Source of the DNA: Saprospira grandis DSM 2844
GTDB lineage: Bacteria > Bacteroidota > Bacteroidia > Chitinophagales > Saprospiraceae
Assembly (NCBI GenBank): GCA_945888475.1
Contig: CAMDAB010000021.1
Location: 1 to 37,370, forward strand
DNA length: 37,370 nucleotides
Direction: 5' to 3'
The notes under the pieces: generated by a model
What the model was told of the DNA's origin: nothing
Database searches by the model: none
Seen by the model: only the letters and a program-made list of their open reading frames with translations
Shown: positions 24,758-36,783 of the stretch, piece after piece
Layout: each line of letters opens with the position of its first letter
How positions within the stretch are numbered: position 1 is the first letter of the stretch
Program-made: the position numbers and the translations under genes

Positions 24758-27700
24758 TCAGTATACAATCGTAGCAAAACCCTTTATTTCTTCAATTTCA
24801 CCCCTTGGCCCTTTAAATCGTACGACAACCACATAAACACCTGCCTGACAATACTCACCGCTATTGAATTTTCGACCATTCCAGGCTTCATAAGGACTAT
24901 TGTTTTCATAAATTCTTTCTCCCCAACGGTTGTAAATACTCATGTTAAAATCCTGAATGTACTGGAAATAACCGGCACCCATATAGTCGTCATTTTTGCC
25001 ATCATTGTTTGGTGTGAAAGCATTGGGTAGAAAATAACTGAATTTTGGAATGATGTCGAGCACTGCCTGAGCAGTATCGGTACAGCCGTTTTGATGAAAA
25101 ACTACCTGAGTGACAGTAATTTGACCTGTATCTCTGTAGACATGTCGTGGGTTTCTCTGACTTGAGCTATTCCCATCTCCAAAATTCCAGATCCATAGTC
25201 CGGCCCTTTGAGAGGAATCGCTAAATTGAACTGTGGAATTATAAATGTTTAAATCGGTACCATTAGGACTAAAAGAGAAACCAGCAACAGGAACTTCCAA
25301 AGCGGTATGCGTACTACTGAAAGTGTCGATACAGCCTATTGGCGAGCGTACAATTACTTGCAGATTGTAAATGCCAGGATTTTCATAAACTACTTGAGGA
25401 GCAGCCTCTGTACTAGTTCTACCATCACCAAATGTCCAGTTAGTACTGTAGCCATTACCTGGATAAGGATTCGGATCGGCAGCGGGCACAATATGCGGCA
25501 CGCAGCCTCTGCTATTGGCCAAACCGATTGGAAAAACAGGCTGCGGGCGCCAATATAGGTTGGCAGTAGAATCATCCGTACAACCATTGTCATCAACAAT
25601 AGAAAGTGTAATGGTATAATTTCCCGTATCGGGCCAATTGTAGCTATGAAAGGCAAGGGGAGCAGTGCTGCTGTCGCCATCGCCAAAGGTCCACAAAGTC
25701 CCGTTCAAAACTCCTTGTGCTGATGGAATAGACAGATTTCTGAAACGTACAGGATCAAGTGCACAGGGGTCAAAAGTCGCATCGAAAACGGCTCTGGGAA
25801 TACCATTGGCAATAATAGTATCTCTGAAAGTTTCGGTACAACCCGAAGCTGTAACAACAGTTAAAGTAGGATAGAAGATACCTTCTGAATTATAAACATA
25901 ACTTGTATCAAAAACAGTGGAGGTCTGTCCGTTGCCAAAATTCCAGAAGAAATTATATCCCGGAAAATTATTCAGCTGATTATTATTGAAGTTGATACTG
26001 ACAGGAATACAGGCTTCTTCATTGTGTGATTGAACCGGGAAAACAGGAGCGGGGAAATAGGGGATGGTTCTTCTGATGGTATCGCGACAACCGTTAATAT
26101 CAACAATATCCAAATTCACAGTGTAATTTTGTCTCGGTGTATAGGCTATGAGCGAATCTGTTATTGAGTAGCCAAGACTAGCTGTCCCGATGTCGAAATC
26201 CCAATTCCACTGCGTAATAGAATCTCCTGCCAGATTTTCGAGCGAACGGTCATTGATAAATACCCCACTGAAACTGCAGGAATCATATCTGAAATCGAAA
26301 TTAGCTGTAGGATTTTGATGAACTATAATGGTATCGAAAAAATCTCCGGTACAACCAGTTGGTGATAGAATGAAAAGTTGTACTCGGAATGTTCCAAATT
26401 GTTGGTAAGTATAAGTAGGACTTGCTGCCGTGGAACTGCCGCCATCGCCAAAATTCCAAGTAGTTGTATAGCCATTGAGCGGATAGGAATTATTTGTAAA
26501 ATTAACAGTCAACGGTTGGCAGCCTACACTGTCGCTGACGTCCACCGCAACTATTGGAGCAGGAAACCAGGCTACATTTTGAGTGAGCGTGTCGGTACAG
26601 CCATTAGCATCTGTAACTACCAGGGATACATTAAAATTTCCGGAGTTTGTATACAAATGTGAAGTATCCTGAGCATTTAAAGCTGTTCCGTCGCCAAAAT
26701 TCCATTGCCAGTTAGTAAGCGGAATTCCAGCTCCATTTGGCGTGGATATTTCGTTAAAACTTACAGCACCAATTACACAGGGATCGAAACTAAAGTTAAA
26801 ATTAGCATTCGGTAGCTGAAAAACTTCAATCGTATCCCGGAAGGTATCGGTACAACCTAAAGGTGAGGTAATTACAAGGGATACAAAATAAATGCCCGGG
26901 CTGGTATAGCTATGTGTTGGACTTGCCTGTAAGGAGCCATTTCCATCCCCAAAATTCCAGACAGTACTATAACCGTTGATAGGGTAGGATTGGTTATCAA
27001 AAAACACTGTAAAAGGAGAACAGCCTTGCGGGGCAGTAATACTTACATCTATAACAGGTTTGGGGTACCAATAGATGCTGTCGGCAACGGTATTGGTACA
27101 ACCGTTTGCATCTGTAACGGTTAGATTTACAGGATAAGTACCAGCAAACTGATACAAATGTGATGGATTTTGTAATGTAGATGTAGTTCCGTCCTCAAAA
27201 TCCCAAAACCAGCTTACAATAGCTGTGCCAAGGGTATTAGGCGTGGAGGTATCAATAAAATCGACTGCTTCATACACACAACTGTCATAAGTGTAAGTAA
27301 AATCAGCTGTGGGTCCTTCAAAAACGCTGATCAGGTTTATACTGTCAAGCCTCGATATACAGCCCCAGGGAGATACATGCTGCAGACTGACCGTATAATT
27401 TCCAGGATTGGGATAGGTATGCGTAACTGTTGGACTTTGAATAGATATGTTCCCATCACCAAATGACCAAAGTGTAGAATATATTGGTAAGAATGGAAAT
27501 GAGCTATGCGTAAAAGTGGCTGTGTGTGGCTCGCAACCATCAGGATCATTAACTGAGAAAATTGGCCTTGCTGGCGGGAACCAATCGACGGGTAAGGTAA
27601 AGCTATGAACGCAGTCGTTTGTATCGGTCATTGTTAGACTTACAGTGTATGAACCTGCATTAGGGAATAGATGTGTAGGATTCTGAAGGTTTGAAAAACT

Positions 27701-29020
27701 GCCATCTCCAAAATCCCATAGCCATTCTACAATTGGTGCAGATGGGTCGGTGATTGTCAAATCAGTAAACTGAATTGGAGGCAGTGCTGGATTACAGGAA
27801 TCGATTGTAACTAAAAATCGTGGTACAGCAGGTGGATACACATTAAGCGTAATATCTGCGGTATCGGTACAGCCTACCTGTCCCGGATTTACAACCAGAA
27901 ATCCATTATAAGTACCGGCACCCGGAAATGTAATAGTCGGATTGGTATTGTTAGATGTTGCAAAACTACCATTATTTAAGTCGAAAGTCCATTCGTAAGC
28001 AGTGATTAGCGACTGTGGCTGCGCTGTACTCTGGTTAATAAAAGTGATGACATTATTGTTACAAGTATTGACAATAAAAGCCTGGCCGCTGACATCGATC
28101 GAATCGGATTGAATGGCTGCCTCTAATGTCGAAAAACAGTTCACAACGTTAAACTGAAAATCACGCATGGTGGTACTCAGTAAAACTCCATTTGAATTAA
28201 ATTCACGAACACAAACACCTACAACGTACTGGCCTGTTTGAGTTGGTGTTCCCGTCAATAAACCTGTACTTGAATTGATACTGACGGCAGGATTTGCCGG
28301 CATAGGAAAAGCTGAGCTGAATCCCGGCGAAAAAGGAATTGGCGTGTAGGGCGGTGCAGAGGGCGGATTTGGCGCAGGTACTGCCTGAGAACCACCATTT
28401 ACAGGGTCACAAAGTGAGTAAACCAATGTATTTCCATTAGCATCGGTTGCGGCATGGTTAAAATTTATTGGCTGATTGCGGCAAATTACAATTGGCGGAT
28501 AGTTTATAAAAACCGGGCTACTATTGCAAGCCTGCTGTGCCGTACCTGTTAAAGTAATGGAATAGGTTGCACCTACAGCACCGGGATTGATGAGGTTATT
28601 GATGGTTTGGTTGCGACAGCAGCGCTGATAAGCAAAGGTATATCCTGCAGCATCGAAAGGAAGTGTTACAACTGTGGTGTAAACAGCTTCTTCCACTCCA
28701 ACTGTTCCTGGTGTCACAGTTAAACATGGATTGCTGAGGTCTATTGGGGCATTTGTAATGACCGGATTATTGAGCTGCAATGTCTGAAAAACTGTTGTTG
28801 AAGCTCCTGCATAAACCCCAACAATTGCTGGATTATCGAAAGGAGCCTGACCGTTGATGGCATCGCGATAAACTCTAAGGGTTATGCGCAGCGTTATCGT
28901 ATTATTGATCGCATTGAATCCCTGGCATTGATAACTCAAAACACCCCCTACAATATGCGTAGCATTAGCAGTGCAAGCTGTCAGAATTATCAAAAGCAAT
29001 ATATTGTAGAAGTTTTTCAT
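24758..29020 (-). CDS. Giant secreted PKD-repeat protein with T9SS type B sorting domain
   Basis: The 1420-residue protein has a signal peptide (about 1-20, TANA/THIVGG). An N-terminal domain (about 21-300) common to such Bacteroidota proteins (THIVGGVLSYQCQG, YQRCCRN) follows. About 12 PKD domains fill about 330-1330, each with W-x-FGDG or a variant; the first and eighth are degenerate. The C-terminal type B sorting domain starts near 1335 (LPNAFTPNNDGKNDD, FNMSIYNRWGERIYEN). The PKD units alternate between two types; the pair repeats about every 510 nt. Paired cysteines occur in each unit (NGC/SPxGC). It should be exported by T9SS and sit on the surface or be released, probably in adhesion or motility. 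It starts 4 nt after the glcD-like gene. Confidence 0.93.
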   Translation of the reverse strand: MKNFYNILLLIILTACTANATHIVGGVLSYQCQGFNAINNTITLRITLRVYRDAINGQAPFDNPAIVGVYAGASTTVFQTLQLNNPVITNAPIDLSNPCLTVTPGTVGVEEAVYTTVVTLPFDAAGYTFAYQRCCRNQTINNLINPGAVGATYSITLTGTAQQACNSSPVFINYPPIVICRNQPINFNHAATDANGNTLVYSLCDPVNGGSQAVPAPNPPSAPPYTPIPFSPGFSSAFPMPANPAVSINSSTGLLTGTPTQTGQYVVGVCVREFNSNGVLLSTTMRDFQFNVVNCFSTLEAAIQSDSIDVSGQAFIVNTCNNNVITFINQSTAQPQSLITAYEWTFDLNNGSFATSNNTNPTITFPGAGTYNGFLVVNPGQVGCTDTADITLNVYPPAVPRFLVTIDSCNPALPPIQFTDLTITDPSAPIVEWLWDFGDGSFSNLQNPTHLFPNAGSYTVSLTMTDTNDCVHSFTLPVDWFPPARPIFSVNDPDGCEPHTATFTHSSFPFLPIYSTLWSFGDGNISIQSPTVTHTYPNPGNYTVSLQHVSPWGCISRLDSINLISVFEGPTADFTYTYDSCVYEAVDFIDTSTPNTLGTAIVSWFWDFEDGTTSTLQNPSHLYQFAGTYPVNLTVTDANGCTNTVADSIYWYPKPVIDVSITAPQGCSPFTVFFDNQSYPINGYSTVWNFGDGNGSLQASPTHSYTSPGIYFVSLVITSPLGCTDTFRDTIEVFQLPNANFNFSFDPCVIGAVSFNEISTPNGAGIPLTNWQWNFGDGTALNAQDTSHLYTNSGNFNVSLVVTDANGCTDTLTQNVAWFPAPIVAVDVSDSVGCQPLTVNFTNNSYPLNGYTTTWNFGDGGSSTAASPTYTYQQFGTFRVQLFILSPTGCTGDFFDTIIVHQNPTANFDFRYDSCSFSGVFINDRSLENLAGDSITQWNWDFDIGTASLGYSITDSLIAYTPRQNYTVNLDIVDINGCRDTIRRTIPYFPAPVFPVQSHNEEACIPVSINFNNNQLNNFPGYNFFWNFGNGQTSTVFDTSYVYNSEGIFYPTLTVVTASGCTETFRDTIIANGIPRAVFDATFDPCALDPVRFRNLSIPSAQGVLNGTLWTFGDGDSSTAPLAFHSYNWPDTGNYTITLSIVDDNGCTDDSTANLYWRPQPVFPIGLANSRGCVPHIVPAADPNPYPGNGYSTNWTFGDGRTSTEAAPQVVYENPGIYNLQVIVRSPIGCIDTFSSTHTALEVPVAGFSFSPNGTDLNIYNSTVQFSDSSQRAGLWIWNFGDGNSSSQRNPRHVYRDTGQITVTQVVFHQNGCTDTAQAVLDIIPKFSYFLPNAFTPNNDGKNDDYMGAGYFQYIQDFNMSIYNRWGERIYENNSPYEAWNGRKFNSGEYCQAGVYVVVVRFKGPRGEIEEIKGFATIVY

Positions 29021-30450: not shown

Positions 30451-30484
30451 AAAAAGTCCCCAAACTTTTGGTTTGAGGACTTTC
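30451..30484 (-). terminator. Intrinsic terminator after the DUF1573 frame
   Basis: AAAGTCC-C-CAAAC pairs with GTTTG-A-GGACTTT (one mismatch) around TTTTG. On the minus strand the stem is followed by a T-rich run TTTTTTATTTTT (30455 to 30444). It closes the PorP-PorE-DUF1573 unit. Confidence 0.75.
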
Positions 30485-30500
30485 GAAAATATTTTATGAT

Positions 30501-30896
30501 TTATTTTACGATGTCGGCAGAAAGAAAATAAAGTTCCATGTCATTTTTTACGTTACCGTAGATTTCAACTGCTGAACTGTATCCTTTTTTTAGCTCGGCA
30601 AAGTTGCTGTCGAATTTAATTTTAACAAACCCTTTTTTGCCAGGTTGAACAGGTTTTCTCGACCAATCGAGCGGCTCTGTACAAGTGCATCCACCCTGAA
30701 CAAAATCAATTTTAAAGTCTTCCTTTCCTGTATTCGTAAATTCAAAAGTCAATTCTCTTGATTCACCAAATTTGATAGCTCCGAAATTGTGTTCCTTTTT
30801 ATCAAATTTAATACTGGTTAGGACTCTTTTTTTAGTTTCGGGTTCAGTTATTTTTTTTTTCGGTGGAAACAACTGTATTTTCAGTATTGCTTCCAT
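30501..30896 (-). CDS. DUF1573 domain protein without a visible secretion signal
   Basis: The open frame encodes a DUF1573 domain, a single Ig/MSP-like beta domain: FDKKEHNFGAIKFGES, FEFTNTGKEDFKID, GGCTCTEPLDW, VQPGKKGFVKIKFD. Such proteins are normally exported with a signal peptide or lipobox. Here only ATGs at 30896 or 30911 are available, and neither gives a signal peptide. Both lie inside the preceding PorE-like gene, which ends at 30844. The overlap contains an A10 run on the coding strand (30851-30860). A loss of one A, or gain of two, would fuse this domain in frame to the OmpA protein. It may thus be a separate gene, a slippage-made fusion or the result of a sequence error. The start is unresolved. 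Confidence 0.6.
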   Translation of the reverse strand: MEAILKIQLFPPKKKITEPETKKRVLTSIKFDKKEHNFGAIKFGESRELTFEFTNTGKEDFKIDFVQGGCTCTEPLDWSRKPVQPGKKGFVKIKFDSNFAELKKGYSSAVEIYGNVKNDMELYFLSADIVK

Positions 30897-33168
30897 TGTC
30901 GCCCAGAGCACCTTCTCCTTTGATAATCTTGAATTCGACGCGGCGATTTAGCTGGCGTCCTTCAGGGTTATCTTTTCCATCAGGATTTTCGTTTGGAGCA
31001 ACCGGCTCGTTTTCACCAAATCCTTTTGGAATCATTCTCGACTTTTCAATACCTTTATTAGTCAGGTAATCCATAGCAGAATTAGATCGATTTTGAGAAA
31101 GCTGATCATTGTATGTGTTTGAACCATGCGCATCTGTATGTCCGCGTACTTCAACCACCATGTCAGGATGATCCTTCAGGATAGTTGCAATCATATCCAA
31201 GGTGTCGGCTGCACCCTGACGGATATTAAATTTGTCATAATCGAAGAGTATATTAACAAAGATTGGAGGTGGAGTGAGGTAAAGCTTTTGGACATTTTTC
31301 AAGTCGGCTTTAGCAACTGTTTTGCTCTCACCTACAAAACCCTGAAGACGTGCTTGAATACGAACATCATTGCTACGACCGATTTTAAATTCGTGACGGT
31401 TGCTGCCAACGGTTGATTCTTTTAGGATTTCATTATTAGCGCCGTAAACAATTACACTAACACCACCGAGTGGCTCATTTGTTTTTTTGTTGTAAGTTTC
31501 AACAATTAGGCCCATTTCTTTTAGGGTAGTTTTATCTTCCCAAGCCATAGGGTTATCAATTGTACCGAAACGTTTTTCAAGTGCAGGACGGCGTGCATCG
31601 ATGTTAGTTTTGGCACCACTTTCCCAGCCATCTTTTTTGGCTACAACTTCATATTCTTTACCTTGTTCAAGCATAAAAGTATAGTTGTTTCCGTTGGCAT
31701 TGCTTTGTTCATCTACAACTTTACCAGTAGATTTTTCGATGAGTTGAACAACTGCACCATTCACAGGAGCATTACCTTTTTCCTGATCGTATACTTTGAT
31801 AGCAAGTTCAACATCGCATCTTTCAGGCATCAATACAGAGAAAATATCATCGGTAGAAGTTTTCTTGCCGGGTACAGAGGTTGTTCCTTCGCGGTTAGAA
31901 ATGAAATAACCGTAACAGTCGTCTTTGCCTTCGCGGTTGATGATAAATGCAAACTCGTCAAGACTAGTGTTGAAACCGGGGCCCATGTTGGTTACTTCTC
32001 CCCAACTGCCTGTTTTTGAGCGCTTGCTGGTGAACATATCAATACCTCCGAAGCCAGGGTGGCCGCTGGATGCAAAGTAAAGATTGTTATCGCGGCTGTC
32101 ATAGAAAGGATATGAATCGTCACCTACTGAGTTTACAGCTTCGAGGTTGAGCGGTTGGCGGGTAGTTCCATCGGCATTGATTTCAGCGTACCAGATATCA
32201 AAACCACCTTTACCACCAGGCATGTTTGAAGAGAAGAAAAGTACTTCTTTGCCATCAATTTTACCAACTGCTGGGTTCTTACAAGTGTATGAATCATTGT
32301 TAAAGTCTAGTTGAACAGGCTCACCTACAGTAGTGCCATCAAAAGATGCAAAATAAATTTTACTGTTCTCAAGTACATTACCTATGAGTTTTGCACGAAC
32401 AAAATAGAATTTACTCATGTCGGCACTGAAAGTAGGATTAACACTGTGCGACCCTTCTTTGTACAGTACATTTGGATTGAACTCAGTTGCTTTACCCCAT
32501 TCTTTGGCATTGCCGTCATAATCGGAAGAGAAAATTCTTACATATTTTACTCTTGGATCTGCCTTTTCTACAAAGATGATGGTATCGCTGCGAAGTGAAG
32601 AGAAAATCATTTTGCTTCTGCCAACCGGGTAAGCAAAATTTTCCATCAGTGCAGAGTTAATTTCTTTACCGGCATTTTTGATTTTCAATTCTTCTTTCGA
32701 TTTTGTTCCTGCAGACTGAGCCATTTTGGCACCGTCAATTTCTATGCGGGCAAGAGCTTTGTATCTGTCGGCCTCTGTTCCATCGTACTCATTTCTGAAT
32801 TGTTCATAAACAGGAATACATTCTGCATATTTGGCATTCAATTTCATTGAATAGGCATAGTACCAACGCGCAAGCTTAAAGATACCTTCTTTGTCTGCAT
32901 CTAAAACTTTTTTAAACCAGACTTCTGCATCCGTATAGTCACGAAGCATTAAATAGGTGTAAGCAACATCGTATGTAGCTTTGGCATCGTTTGGTTTTTT
33001 GTCATACACTTTCATGTAAAGGTCTAACGCATTCCAAGTATCGTTTTTGCCAAGATTTTCATCGGCCAGGGTTTCCAATTTTTCAACCGGTTGTCCGACA
33101 GGTGGTTGTGCCCAGTTGTGTGTTAAGGCCAACATGAAAGCAAATGCAATTAAAATACAATTTTTCAT
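30844..33168 (-). CDS. PorE-like OmpA-family protein (TPR, beta-propeller, regulatory-like domains, OmpA)
   Basis: The 774-residue protein has a signal peptide (about 1-20, NWAQ). TPR-like helices follow (about 25-135), then a PD40/WD40-like beta-propeller (about 165-430), carboxypeptidase-regulatory-like beta domains (about 450-630), and an OmpA peptidoglycan-binding domain (about 643-755). The OmpA domain contains MVVEVRGHTDAHGSNTYNDQ and LNRRVEFKI. This is the domain order of PorE, which binds peptidoglycan and the PorP barrel and is part of T9SS. The PorP/SprF gene lies 62 nt upstream on the same strand, consistent with that pair. No lipobox is seen. After the OmpA domain a short tail leads to an A10 run and the stop. 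Confidence 0.9.
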   Translation of the reverse strand: MKNCILIAFAFMLALTHNWAQPPVGQPVEKLETLADENLGKNDTWNALDLYMKVYDKKPNDAKATYDVAYTYLMLRDYTDAEVWFKKVLDADKEGIFKLARWYYAYSMKLNAKYAECIPVYEQFRNEYDGTEADRYKALARIEIDGAKMAQSAGTKSKEELKIKNAGKEINSALMENFAYPVGRSKMIFSSLRSDTIIFVEKADPRVKYVRIFSSDYDGNAKEWGKATEFNPNVLYKEGSHSVNPTFSADMSKFYFVRAKLIGNVLENSKIYFASFDGTTVGEPVQLDFNNDSYTCKNPAVGKIDGKEVLFFSSNMPGGKGGFDIWYAEINADGTTRQPLNLEAVNSVGDDSYPFYDSRDNNLYFASSGHPGFGGIDMFTSKRSKTGSWGEVTNMGPGFNTSLDEFAFIINREGKDDCYGYFISNREGTTSVPGKKTSTDDIFSVLMPERCDVELAIKVYDQEKGNAPVNGAVVQLIEKSTGKVVDEQSNANGNNYTFMLEQGKEYEVVAKKDGWESGAKTNIDARRPALEKRFGTIDNPMAWEDKTTLKEMGLIVETYNKKTNEPLGGVSVIVYGANNEILKESTVGSNRHEFKIGRSNDVRIQARLQGFVGESKTVAKADLKNVQKLYLTPPPIFVNILFDYDKFNIRQGAADTLDMIATILKDHPDMVVEVRGHTDAHGSNTYNDQLSQNRSNSAMDYLTNKGIEKSRMIPKGFGENEPVAPNENPDGKDNPEGRQLNRRVEFKIIKGEGALGDNGSNTENTVVSTEKKNN

Positions 33169-34752: not shown

Positions 34753-36783
34753 TTATGGAATCAAATCAGAGGCGTTCCTCATCGTAACTTGTTTTGTTGT
34801 ATTAAACTGTCCTATTATACCTATTACATCGAAAGGAGTGGCAGGAACAGTACTTCCCGAGAAAGTAGCAGCTGTACGCGTGTACAATGTGATTGAACCC
34901 GAACCGTCACTAATGACAAGATTTCCACCTGCAGCGCCAAAAGTTGGTCCGCCAGATGTTATTGAACTAATATTGTCGATTCTTACCAAAGTCGATTCCC
35001 AGATTTCAGAATTGGTGTTTATTTGTGCCAATGTTGCAACTCTTGGGCTAACACTATTGCCCGTAGAAACCGTGGTAGCAGTTGTAAGGGCAAGACCGCT
35101 TACTTGTAAAAGCCCGTTAAATTCCTCTAGTGTTGCTCCGCTAATATTGATTTCAACTTTGTCTCCAAGATTCAGTGTATGATTTGATGTAAAACGAACT
35201 GTAACGCCAAAACCTAAAGAGTCTTGGATTACAGCATTTTGAGAGACAACGTTTCCATTAGCTCTGTCAGAAATTACAACCCCCCTGATTTTAAGATTTC
35301 CACTAACATTACCTGTGGCTCCGGTAAACTGCGCGCGAACATCTTCGATATTTTCTAAAGTTGCTCCACTTCCACAAGGTGTTCCTCCTGTTACGTCAAC
35401 AGCTGGATCTCTCAGCTGAACCTGATAAGTGGTAAATTGACCCATGATACCAACAACCTCTAGTGTTCCGCATGGTACGGGATTAGCAGCAAAACTTGCT
35501 GTAAAACGTGTGAATAAATCAATAGTACCTGTGCCGTCTGTTAAATCAAGACCACCGGAATAAGTAGTAGATCCGCTGATGCCAGCATTCACAATTTTCA
35601 CCAATGAAGATTCGTAGGTCTCAGGATTTGCCAAAAGGTTAGCTACGGTTACGGTTGTCGGTGGAACCACATTGCCGGTTGATACAACAGTTACAGATCC
35701 GCTTGGGATATCTTCCAACTGCATTAGACCACTGAATTCTCCGAGTGTAGCTCCATCTAAAGGAATTTCTACCTGGTCTCCTTCATTAAATGTATGTGCC
35801 GATGTAAAGCGCATCGTAATACCGCCGCTTGCATCCATCACAACCATATTTTGACCAACAATATTTCCTGTTGTGCGGTCTGAAATAACATAGGCATTGA
35901 TTTTTGAATTTGTCGGCACCGAACCGCCAAAAGCTGCACGAAGGGTAGAAATAGAAATAAGGTTACCACCTACAGATATGGTGCAACGATTTCCGTTCAA
36001 TGCATTAACATCATCTGTATCGCGTATGTAAAGTTGAGCATCTGTACCAAAATTGGTGTGAATGCCTACTGCTTTGCCATTACCACCAGGCGTTAGGTCT
36101 GATGCAAAAGTTGCATAACCTGAACTTCTGAGAATGATAGCATTTCCATTACAATCCTGTATACTGCGATTCAATGAAGAAGAAGTGACAGCATCTGCAT
36201 AGGTTTGTCCGCTATCCGCCGCGGCAAATTGTACATCGTTGAGTTCAACCAGCATGTTGCGGTACCTTGTGCTATTTTTAATGTCAAGTATACTTACTGA
36301 TTGTGGTGTTACTGTTTGATCTTTTGGACCACCAACAAGAAATTTCGAAAGCATTCCCTCTGGAATTCTGTCACCGGCATCATTAATAGTAAGCTGATGA
36401 TTTCCTTCATAATCGCCAACAAATAAATCTTTACATTTTACCCATACTTTTCTGCCAACAGGATATTCGGCGTAAAGATTACTTAATTCTATACGAATTT
36501 CAATGCCAGCACTATCGTCCTGAATAATAAGCTGTTTGAAAAAATTACCTGCTTCATCGGAGGATACGACAATGCCCTCAACAACAAGAGAATCTGTTAT
36601 TAATGTTGCTGTATTTCCAATTGTATGCAATGCTTTGATTTGGGAAATTGTTGCATTTGGAATAATAGTAGGATATTCCTCTACTGGTGGTTCGTCGAAA
36701 CGTTTTTTACAGCTCTGAATGCTACTGCCCAATAAAAGTGCTGAAAGGAGTACAGCTGTGAAGCGAATGATGTTCTTTTTCAT
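34753..36783 (-). CDS. DUF5689 lipoprotein with two OB-fold-like repeats
   Basis: The 676-residue protein has a lipoprotein signal (MKKNIIRFTAVLLSALLLGSSIQSC, Cys at about 25). A DUF5689 domain covers about 35-265 (ISQIKALH, VVEGIVVSSDEAGNFFKQLIIQD). Two homologous ~200-residue units follow at about 267-465 and 475-676. Each has a VISDR-x-GN-(I/V)-V-x-QN beta hairpin, RFTSxHT, a GATLxEF(S/N)GL loop and VVGIxGQF near its end. These resemble OB-fold/DUF5689-type strands and probably arose by duplication. It should be a surface or periplasmic lipoprotein. It is 41 nt after a TonB-dependent receptor, a pairing common in this phylum. The function is unknown; ligand capture for the receptor is inferred. 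Confidence 0.88.
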   Translation of the reverse strand: MKKNIIRFTAVLLSALLLGSSIQSCKKRFDEPPVEEYPTIIPNATISQIKALHTIGNTATLITDSLVVEGIVVSSDEAGNFFKQLIIQDDSAGIEIRIELSNLYAEYPVGRKVWVKCKDLFVGDYEGNHQLTINDAGDRIPEGMLSKFLVGGPKDQTVTPQSVSILDIKNSTRYRNMLVELNDVQFAAADSGQTYADAVTSSSLNRSIQDCNGNAIILRSSGYATFASDLTPGGNGKAVGIHTNFGTDAQLYIRDTDDVNALNGNRCTISVGGNLISISTLRAAFGGSVPTNSKINAYVISDRTTGNIVGQNMVVMDASGGITMRFTSAHTFNEGDQVEIPLDGATLGEFSGLMQLEDIPSGSVTVVSTGNVVPPTTVTVANLLANPETYESSLVKIVNAGISGSTTYSGGLDLTDGTGTIDLFTRFTASFAANPVPCGTLEVVGIMGQFTTYQVQLRDPAVDVTGGTPCGSGATLENIEDVRAQFTGATGNVSGNLKIRGVVISDRANGNVVSQNAVIQDSLGFGVTVRFTSNHTLNLGDKVEINISGATLEEFNGLLQVSGLALTTATTVSTGNSVSPRVATLAQINTNSEIWESTLVRIDNISSITSGGPTFGAAGGNLVISDGSGSITLYTRTAATFSGSTVPATPFDVIGIIGQFNTTKQVTMRNASDLIP

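Follow-up and report, generated by a model that had tools for sequence, protein, structure and literature searches.

The window analysed here is the 37,370-nucleotide contig CAMDAB010000021.1 of assembly GCA_945888475.1. On its reverse strand, an open reading frame (ORF) for an OmpA protein ends at a run of ten adenosines (A10), and a DUF1573 domain is encoded directly behind it in a different frame. The features of this locus are as follows:

30844..33168, reverse strand: PorE/CHU_0125-like OmpA protein of 774 amino acids, the zero-frame (short) product, with an N-terminal signal peptide recognized by eye
30973..31248, reverse strand: OmpA domain, residues 641-732 (PF00691, E 9.1e-21; coordinates derived from the residues)
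30851..30860, reverse strand: A10 run, the proposed slippery site (a run of 9-11 in 34/34 loci with the same layout, one of them of T)
30844..30846, reverse strand: zero-frame stop codon TGA, 4 bases past the A10 run
30501..30850, reverse strand: alternative frame encoding a linker and DUF1573, +1 relative to the OmpA frame here and -1 in 32/34 same-layout genomes
30525..30812, reverse strand: DUF1573 domain (profile match), predicted to form an ASH/PapD-like beta sandwich
30452..30484, reverse strand: intrinsic-terminator-like hairpin with a T tail, directly past the DUF1573 stop codon
33231..34289, reverse strand: PorP/SprF family protein, the neighbour upstream of the OmpA gene (PF11751 and TIGR03519, both above cut-off)

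The 3' end of the 774-residue ORF reads GAA AAA AAA AAT AAC TGA, and the second frame continues as ...KKKITEPETKKRV... through the DUF1573 domain to a stop codon at 30501-30503. The domain match is well above the Pfam gathering cut-off (PF07610, E 8.3e-22, 77.5 bits versus 26.1). A shift of +1, produced by the loss of one A or the gain of two, opens this frame from the OmpA ORF, just as a preliminary description made from the letters alone had read it. That description also held that the DUF1573 frame lacks a signal peptide, and none is found by a hydrophobicity rule. Its further statement that the only ATG codons of this frame lie within the upstream gene is correct for the one ATG that precedes the run, which is situated inside the OmpA gene together with one GTG and one TTG. 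However, another ATG is located within the DUF1573 domain, as is one additional TTG.

The hairpin at 30452..30484 has a predicted folding energy of -18.2 kcal/mol (z -4.97), and two terminator-like sites were found in the 621 bases scanned compared with 0.5 expected. Because this terminator-like hairpin lies past the DUF1573 stop codon, the OmpA and DUF1573 frames are probably carried on one transcript. The OmpA protein is a relative of the CHU_0125 and PorE families rather than a member, since its scores are well under both curated cut-offs: the CHU_0125_OmpA profile (NF053607) aligns to residues 42-521 with 307.1 bits (cut-off 620), and T9SS_PorE (NF052230) aligns to residues 34-515 with 214.7 bits (cut-off 600). 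The second gene upstream of the OmpA gene, at 34753-36783 on the reverse strand, encodes a 676-residue protein with three DUF5689 matches. Elsewhere in the window (24758-29020, reverse strand) is a gene for a 1420-residue protein that carries 11 PKD_4 matches and a type B T9SS C-terminal signal (CHU_C, TIGR04131).

A profile search of named genomes placed the closest relatives of this locus in Saprospira grandis strains Lewin and DSM 2844, in Aureispira and in metagenome-assembled genomes of Saprospiraceae. In all 16 close orthologues (L002, L032-L046), the OmpA ORF ends in A9-A11 with a DUF1573 frame behind it, and the ORF typically terminates as G A10 C TAA/TAG. The window is the single +1 locus among them, the other fifteen being at -1, and it is also the sole +1 representative among six genomes of its genus. 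Its sister species shares 89% protein identity with it across residues 327-773. Both sequences contain TAACTGA, and the stretch separating the run from this motif is one base longer in the sister species. The window's contig comes from a 318-contig assembly, and its +1 phase may reflect either a real one-base change or an assembly that is one base off. With the frame at +1, a ribosome shifting by -1 could not reach DUF1573 here; unless the assembly is indeed one base off, a fusion would require polymerase slippage that drops one A or inserts two.

To place this arrangement in context, we surveyed 165 Saprospiraceae genomes from 87 genera, with one locus each. These loci are the best matches to the window protein from two family searches, for which 120 further stretches were fetched, and therefore are not a random sample. 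In one of the searches, 247 of 398 genomes lacked a match at 1e-100; these entered the survey only if the other search had returned a weaker match. For genomes with several loci, one was kept with preference for those bearing DUF1573; paralogues may be present among the loci that lack the domain, and the search for DUF1573 was confined to the stretch fetched for each locus. An order-wide search returned matches at E<=1e-140 in 11 of 396 genomes, all of them in the window's family.

This survey also supplies the search for OmpA-DUF1573 fusions and the comparison of run lengths that the preliminary description had proposed. The two domains are encoded by one ORF in 85 of the 165 genomes, and the window-type layout, with DUF1573 out of frame at the run, occurs in 34 genomes from 15 genera. 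A separate DUF1573 gene is present in 19, DUF1573 was not found in 23, and the locus is cut off at a contig end in the remaining four. Every one of the 34 window-type loci carries a run of 9-11 (A10 in 24, A9 in six, A11 in three and T9 in one). The second frame is at -1 in 32 of these and at +1 in two (the window and L049), and the zero-frame stop codon begins 0-2 bases past the run in 24. No run above seven was found in the 23 loci without DUF1573. On the gene tree, a quick protein tree (LG+G4) that carries a long-branch warning, the window-type layout requires at least ten changes, a minimum that also holds when counting is restricted to well-supported branches.

Runs of this length are not expected at this position by chance. 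The 4.4-Mb S. grandis genome has 19 A10 windows on both strands together, from which a sense-strand A10 in the 40-base junction is expected at a frequency of about 1e-4 by simple arithmetic, versus a run of at least nine observed at the junction in 34/34 signal-less orthologous frames. The presence of the run and the absence of a signal peptide are also perfectly associated among the 53 non-fused DUF1573 loci: 34 have a run of at least nine and no signal, 19 have a signal and no run, and none falls off this diagonal (signals were called by a simple hydrophobicity rule with the best start taken). All five phylogenetically independent pairs agree (p 0.0625), although this is too few pairs to reach p 0.05. 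Two of the 19 separate DUF1573 genes overlap the OmpA ORF, yet have their own start codon and signal. A separate, signal-bearing DUF1573 gene without a run was named in advance as the arrangement that would speak against slippage; it does exist, in those 19 genomes of other genera, but is absent from the window's clade.

Five of the 85 fused genes (L022, L096, L092, L095 and L185, from genera g13, g27 and g64) carry A9-A10 at the junction, and their other frames soon stop. By analogy, slippage in these genes would produce the short form, in a layout resembling that of Thermus dnaX. Two other fused genes, L009 (A10 at residue 741) and L019 (A9 at residue 704), have their run inside DUF1573 and were excluded from this count, and L203 has A8 at the junction. 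A 988-residue fused ORF with two DUF1573 matches was observed in L199 (G018).

The second frame is under purifying selection similar to that on the OmpA ORF, with dN/dS values of 0.04-0.11 in eight of 11 pairs with measurable dS (some genomes are shared between pairs), compared with 0.04-0.12 in nine of 11 pairs for the OmpA ORF. The linker from the run to the domain, which would be untranslated if translation were to begin at the DUF1573 domain, has a pooled pN/pS of 0.32 over nine pairs; the most diverged linker pair (G016 and G197) shows little constraint, with a pN of 0.52 and a pS of 0.76. At least one ATG, GTG or TTG precedes the FxNxG motif in 28 of the 34 same-layout frames. No such codon occurs in the remaining six, among them three of the four S. 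grandis-group genomes and the sister of the window. In all 34 frames, no start codon yields a signal peptide by the hydrophobicity rule. The earlier expectation that DUF1573 proteins are normally exported is borne out in the window's genome and S. grandis: of their 15 DUF1573 matches, an N-terminal hydrophobic signal is present in 13 (12 by a lenient score and L234 by eye) and lacking only at the window locus and at the orthologous S. grandis locus.

From these comparisons we conclude that the locus is very probably subject to conserved recoding, through RNA polymerase slippage, -1 ribosomal frameshifting or both, that would generate a short OmpA isoform and a long OmpA-DUF1573 isoform. A normal transcript would give an exported OmpA protein that ends just past the A run. 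After a change of frame there, whether because RNA polymerase adds or drops A residues, because the ribosome shifts by -1 on A_AAA_AAN, or for both reasons, the polypeptide would run on into the linker and the Ig/ASH-like DUF1573 domain to form a longer periplasmic isoform. The DUF1573 portion would need no signal peptide of its own because the OmpA portion carries it across the membrane. This reading draws on the conserved run, the open and selected second frame, the in-frame fusion in relatives, and a signal that is present at the 53 non-fused loci if and only if the run is absent. Slippage that creates a PorE-DUF1573 fusion was among the explanations originally offered, and it is strongly supported by the in-frame fusions in 85 of 165 genomes and by A9-A11 or T9 in 34/34 split, signal-less loci. 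Both isoforms are presumably made and used, with the tail adding a periplasmic module beside the peptidoglycan anchor.

Which machine slips is less evident, and the use of both is possible. We consider polymerase slippage somewhat the likeliest main cause, with a ribosomal -1 shift as a tentative second candidate whose case is stronger where a hairpin follows, and some other cause as improbable. The absence of any run below nine, the single T9 and the two +1 loci among the 34 same-layout loci all favour the polymerase. Programmed transcriptional slippage is recognized by a run of about nine or more at the frame junction and by a conserved layout with a selected downstream frame, both of which are found here. 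Programmed -1 frameshifting is recognized by a heptamer leading into the -1 frame, and in the window the downstream frame is instead +1. An upstream RNA structure that might stimulate polymerase slippage gave no clear signal in the 60 nucleotides upstream of the run (mean z -0.32, 4/34 under -2) or in 52-nucleotide windows.

Downstream of the run, RNA folding was scored in ten lineages that we grouped from the gene tree, because scores within one genus are not independent. The mean z over these lineages is -0.87 at +0, -1.63 at +10 and -1.35 at +20, and lies between -0.6 and +0.5 at all other offsets. Controls from the OmpA ORF (102 windows, mean z -0.22, 2% under -2) and from the linkers of fused genes (85 windows, mean z -0.15, 4% under -2; 734 windows, mean z -0.02, 5.7%) remain near zero. 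The window itself scores -0.6, -0.2 and 0.6 at +0, +10 and +20, and -2.1 and -2.3 at +30 and +40; most Aureispira loci likewise show structure only at +30 to +40. Covariation in the S. grandis hairpin is not significant (one compensatory pair, two broken cells, 134/500 shuffles as high). Genus g81 has a strong downstream hairpin in 3/3 genomes (-24 to -32 kcal/mol), and G081 appears to pair in another register, so this genus provides no clean covariation. The sole T9 junction, in L155 (G208), is followed by a 14-bp hairpin with z down to -7.2.

If the polymerase were faithful and the slip were made by the ribosome alone, on A_AAA_AAN followed by a stem-loop as in E. coli dnaX, the -1 phase of 32/34 loci and the stop codon 0-2 bases past the run in 24/34 would be readily understood. 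The structure peak 10-20 nucleotides downstream also fits, with ten of 34 loci scoring z under -2 at +10 and strong structure in three of the four S. grandis-group genomes, g81, g41, g6, g97 and G079. However, a run of about seven is enough for a ribosomal slip and none of the 34 is below nine, only four of the ten lineages have a mean z under -1.5 at +10, and the two +1 loci, including the window, cannot work in this manner. We therefore view ribosomal frameshifting alone as rather unlikely, bearing in mind that it is a sub-case of the preferred reading and that its probability overlaps with that of the whole. Replication slippage in the A tract could alternatively toggle the fusion between cells at the DNA level. 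Tracts of A9-A11 are mutable, the window and L049 are out of phase with their congeners, and the five fused genes with A9-A10 at the junction look as the 'on' phase would; because these genes fit, phase variation retains some weight. Even so, a phase-variable contingency locus is recognized by phase differences among close relatives. In the seven genera with at least two same-layout members, 24 of 26 genomes are at -1, when a random phase would divide them into about thirds, and no sampled genus mixes in-frame with out-of-frame runs. We judge this explanation to be decidedly improbable.

The two remaining proposals both stem from the preliminary description. Translational coupling or internal initiation in an overlapping gene would release a free, cytoplasmic DUF1573 protein, and the start codons ahead of the FxNxG motif in 28/34 frames, together with the ATG upstream of the run in the window, would permit it. 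This proposal is nevertheless disfavoured, and we hold it to be very improbable: six of the 34 frames have no such start, the linker codons are selected (the pooled pN/pS of 0.32 given above), and no start gives a signal peptide, versus 13/13 paralogues and 19/19 separate genes that have one. It also leaves the run unexplained. A homopolymer error of sequencing or assembly that masks an in-frame fusion might be suspected from the 318 contigs of the assembly and from the one-base departure from the sister species' phase. For the family-wide pattern such an error is scarcely credible, given that the same run and the -1 phase recur in separately sequenced genomes that include S. grandis Lewin and DSM 2844, and that the layout requires its ten or more tree changes and has a stop codon close to the run. 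The same error could still account for the window's own +1 phase.

Examples of recoding at A runs have been described in dnaX, type III and type VI secretion genes, IS elements and endosymbionts, in our impression largely as single cases. The E. coli dnaX gene uses A_AAA_AAG and a stem-loop for a ribosomal -1 shift. In Thermus thermophilus dnaX, polymerase slippage occurs at A9 (PMC1088944, PMC5009743). Homologous dnaX genes thus employ either mechanism to yield isoforms of two lengths, as we propose here, whereas slippage in the OmpA-DUF1573 gene would mostly add a domain rather than remove one. In Citrobacter rodentium tssM1, polymerase slippage at an A11 located 28 nucleotides upstream of an early stop codon adds A residues and gives short and full-length forms of an envelope protein (PMC4256274). 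The likeness is an A run and two lengths of an envelope protein. The difference is that tssM1, a type VI secretion gene with a Yersinia relative, has been demonstrated to slip, whereas our case is comparative and concerns an OmpA-DUF1573 module whose fused, recoded and split states are distributed family-wide. Slippage sites of 9A or 9T occur in IS elements and other genes, where A runs likewise join two ORFs. According to Baranov and others, selection against slippage is evident in a large fraction of genomes at a run length of nine (PMC1088944). The OmpA-DUF1573 gene is a chromosomal envelope gene and not a mobile element.

Thus, A-run slippage that gives two protein lengths is already known, and what appears to be new is one module in three interchangeable states across a family. 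Among the titles and abstract openings returned by searches of open PMC full text, none described recoding in an OmpA-DUF1573 gene, which leaves room for a report in a subscription journal, and the main text of a frameshift survey (PMC3711429) contains no occurrence of OmpA, DUF1573 or Saprospira. It is an evenly balanced proposition that slippage here is an evolved device, gained repeatedly across the family, that sets the ratio of short to DUF1573-tailed anchors. The recoded state would then be an interchangeable intermediate, with a hard-wired fusion on one side and a split gene whose product is exported separately on the other. The slipping machine would differ by lineage, with the polymerase acting on bare runs and the ribosome where a hairpin follows, so that one gene family would hold both mechanisms as dnaX does between phyla. 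At least ten state changes within one bacterial family offer matched comparisons of fused, recoded and split genes with a signal, which make testable why a cell might want two isoforms, how gene fusion and division might proceed by way of recoding, and which machine slips. If recoding does occur, automatic gene calls would be expected either to drop the domain or to call a spurious, unexported DUF1573 gene.

The possible role of the tail was approached through its predicted structure. For the window's DUF1573 frame, aligned with ten named relatives, a beta sandwich is predicted at high confidence (pLDDT 92.9). Its sequence matches none of the solved structures at E<=0.01. Foldseek ranks the Vibrio protease VesC first (E 2.0e-6); below it come ASH/PapD-like domains, among them HYDIN (6.1e-6) and CEP192 SPD-2 (8.6e-5), and the Porphyromonas gingivalis protein 2qsv (5.9e-5), which leads a second structural alignment (Z 12.7, rmsd 4.0, 112 aligned). 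This common fold alone proves no function, but the tail may act as a module for binding or scaffolding in the periplasm, beside the peptidoglycan anchor. The PorE OmpA protein (PMC7192894) and CHU_0125, a protein of 656 residues with TPR, PD40 and OmpA domains (PMC5891637), provide comparison systems; the NCBIfam profiles of both families align to the window protein, which shares their OmpA domain. When the relative chu_0125 is deleted in Cytophaga hutchinsonii, outer membrane integrity is impaired, according to a report whose main text has no occurrence of DUF1573 (PMC5891637).

A further candidate for slippage was encountered in S. grandis. Five of its seven GA10C sites (L209, L211, L212, L214 and L215 of G057, position 1501) belong to copies of one ORF of about 568 residues. 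The run sits in the open frame of this ORF, and a stop follows after a few codons at most in each of the two other frames. The ORF perhaps encodes a transposase with a slippage-made short form.
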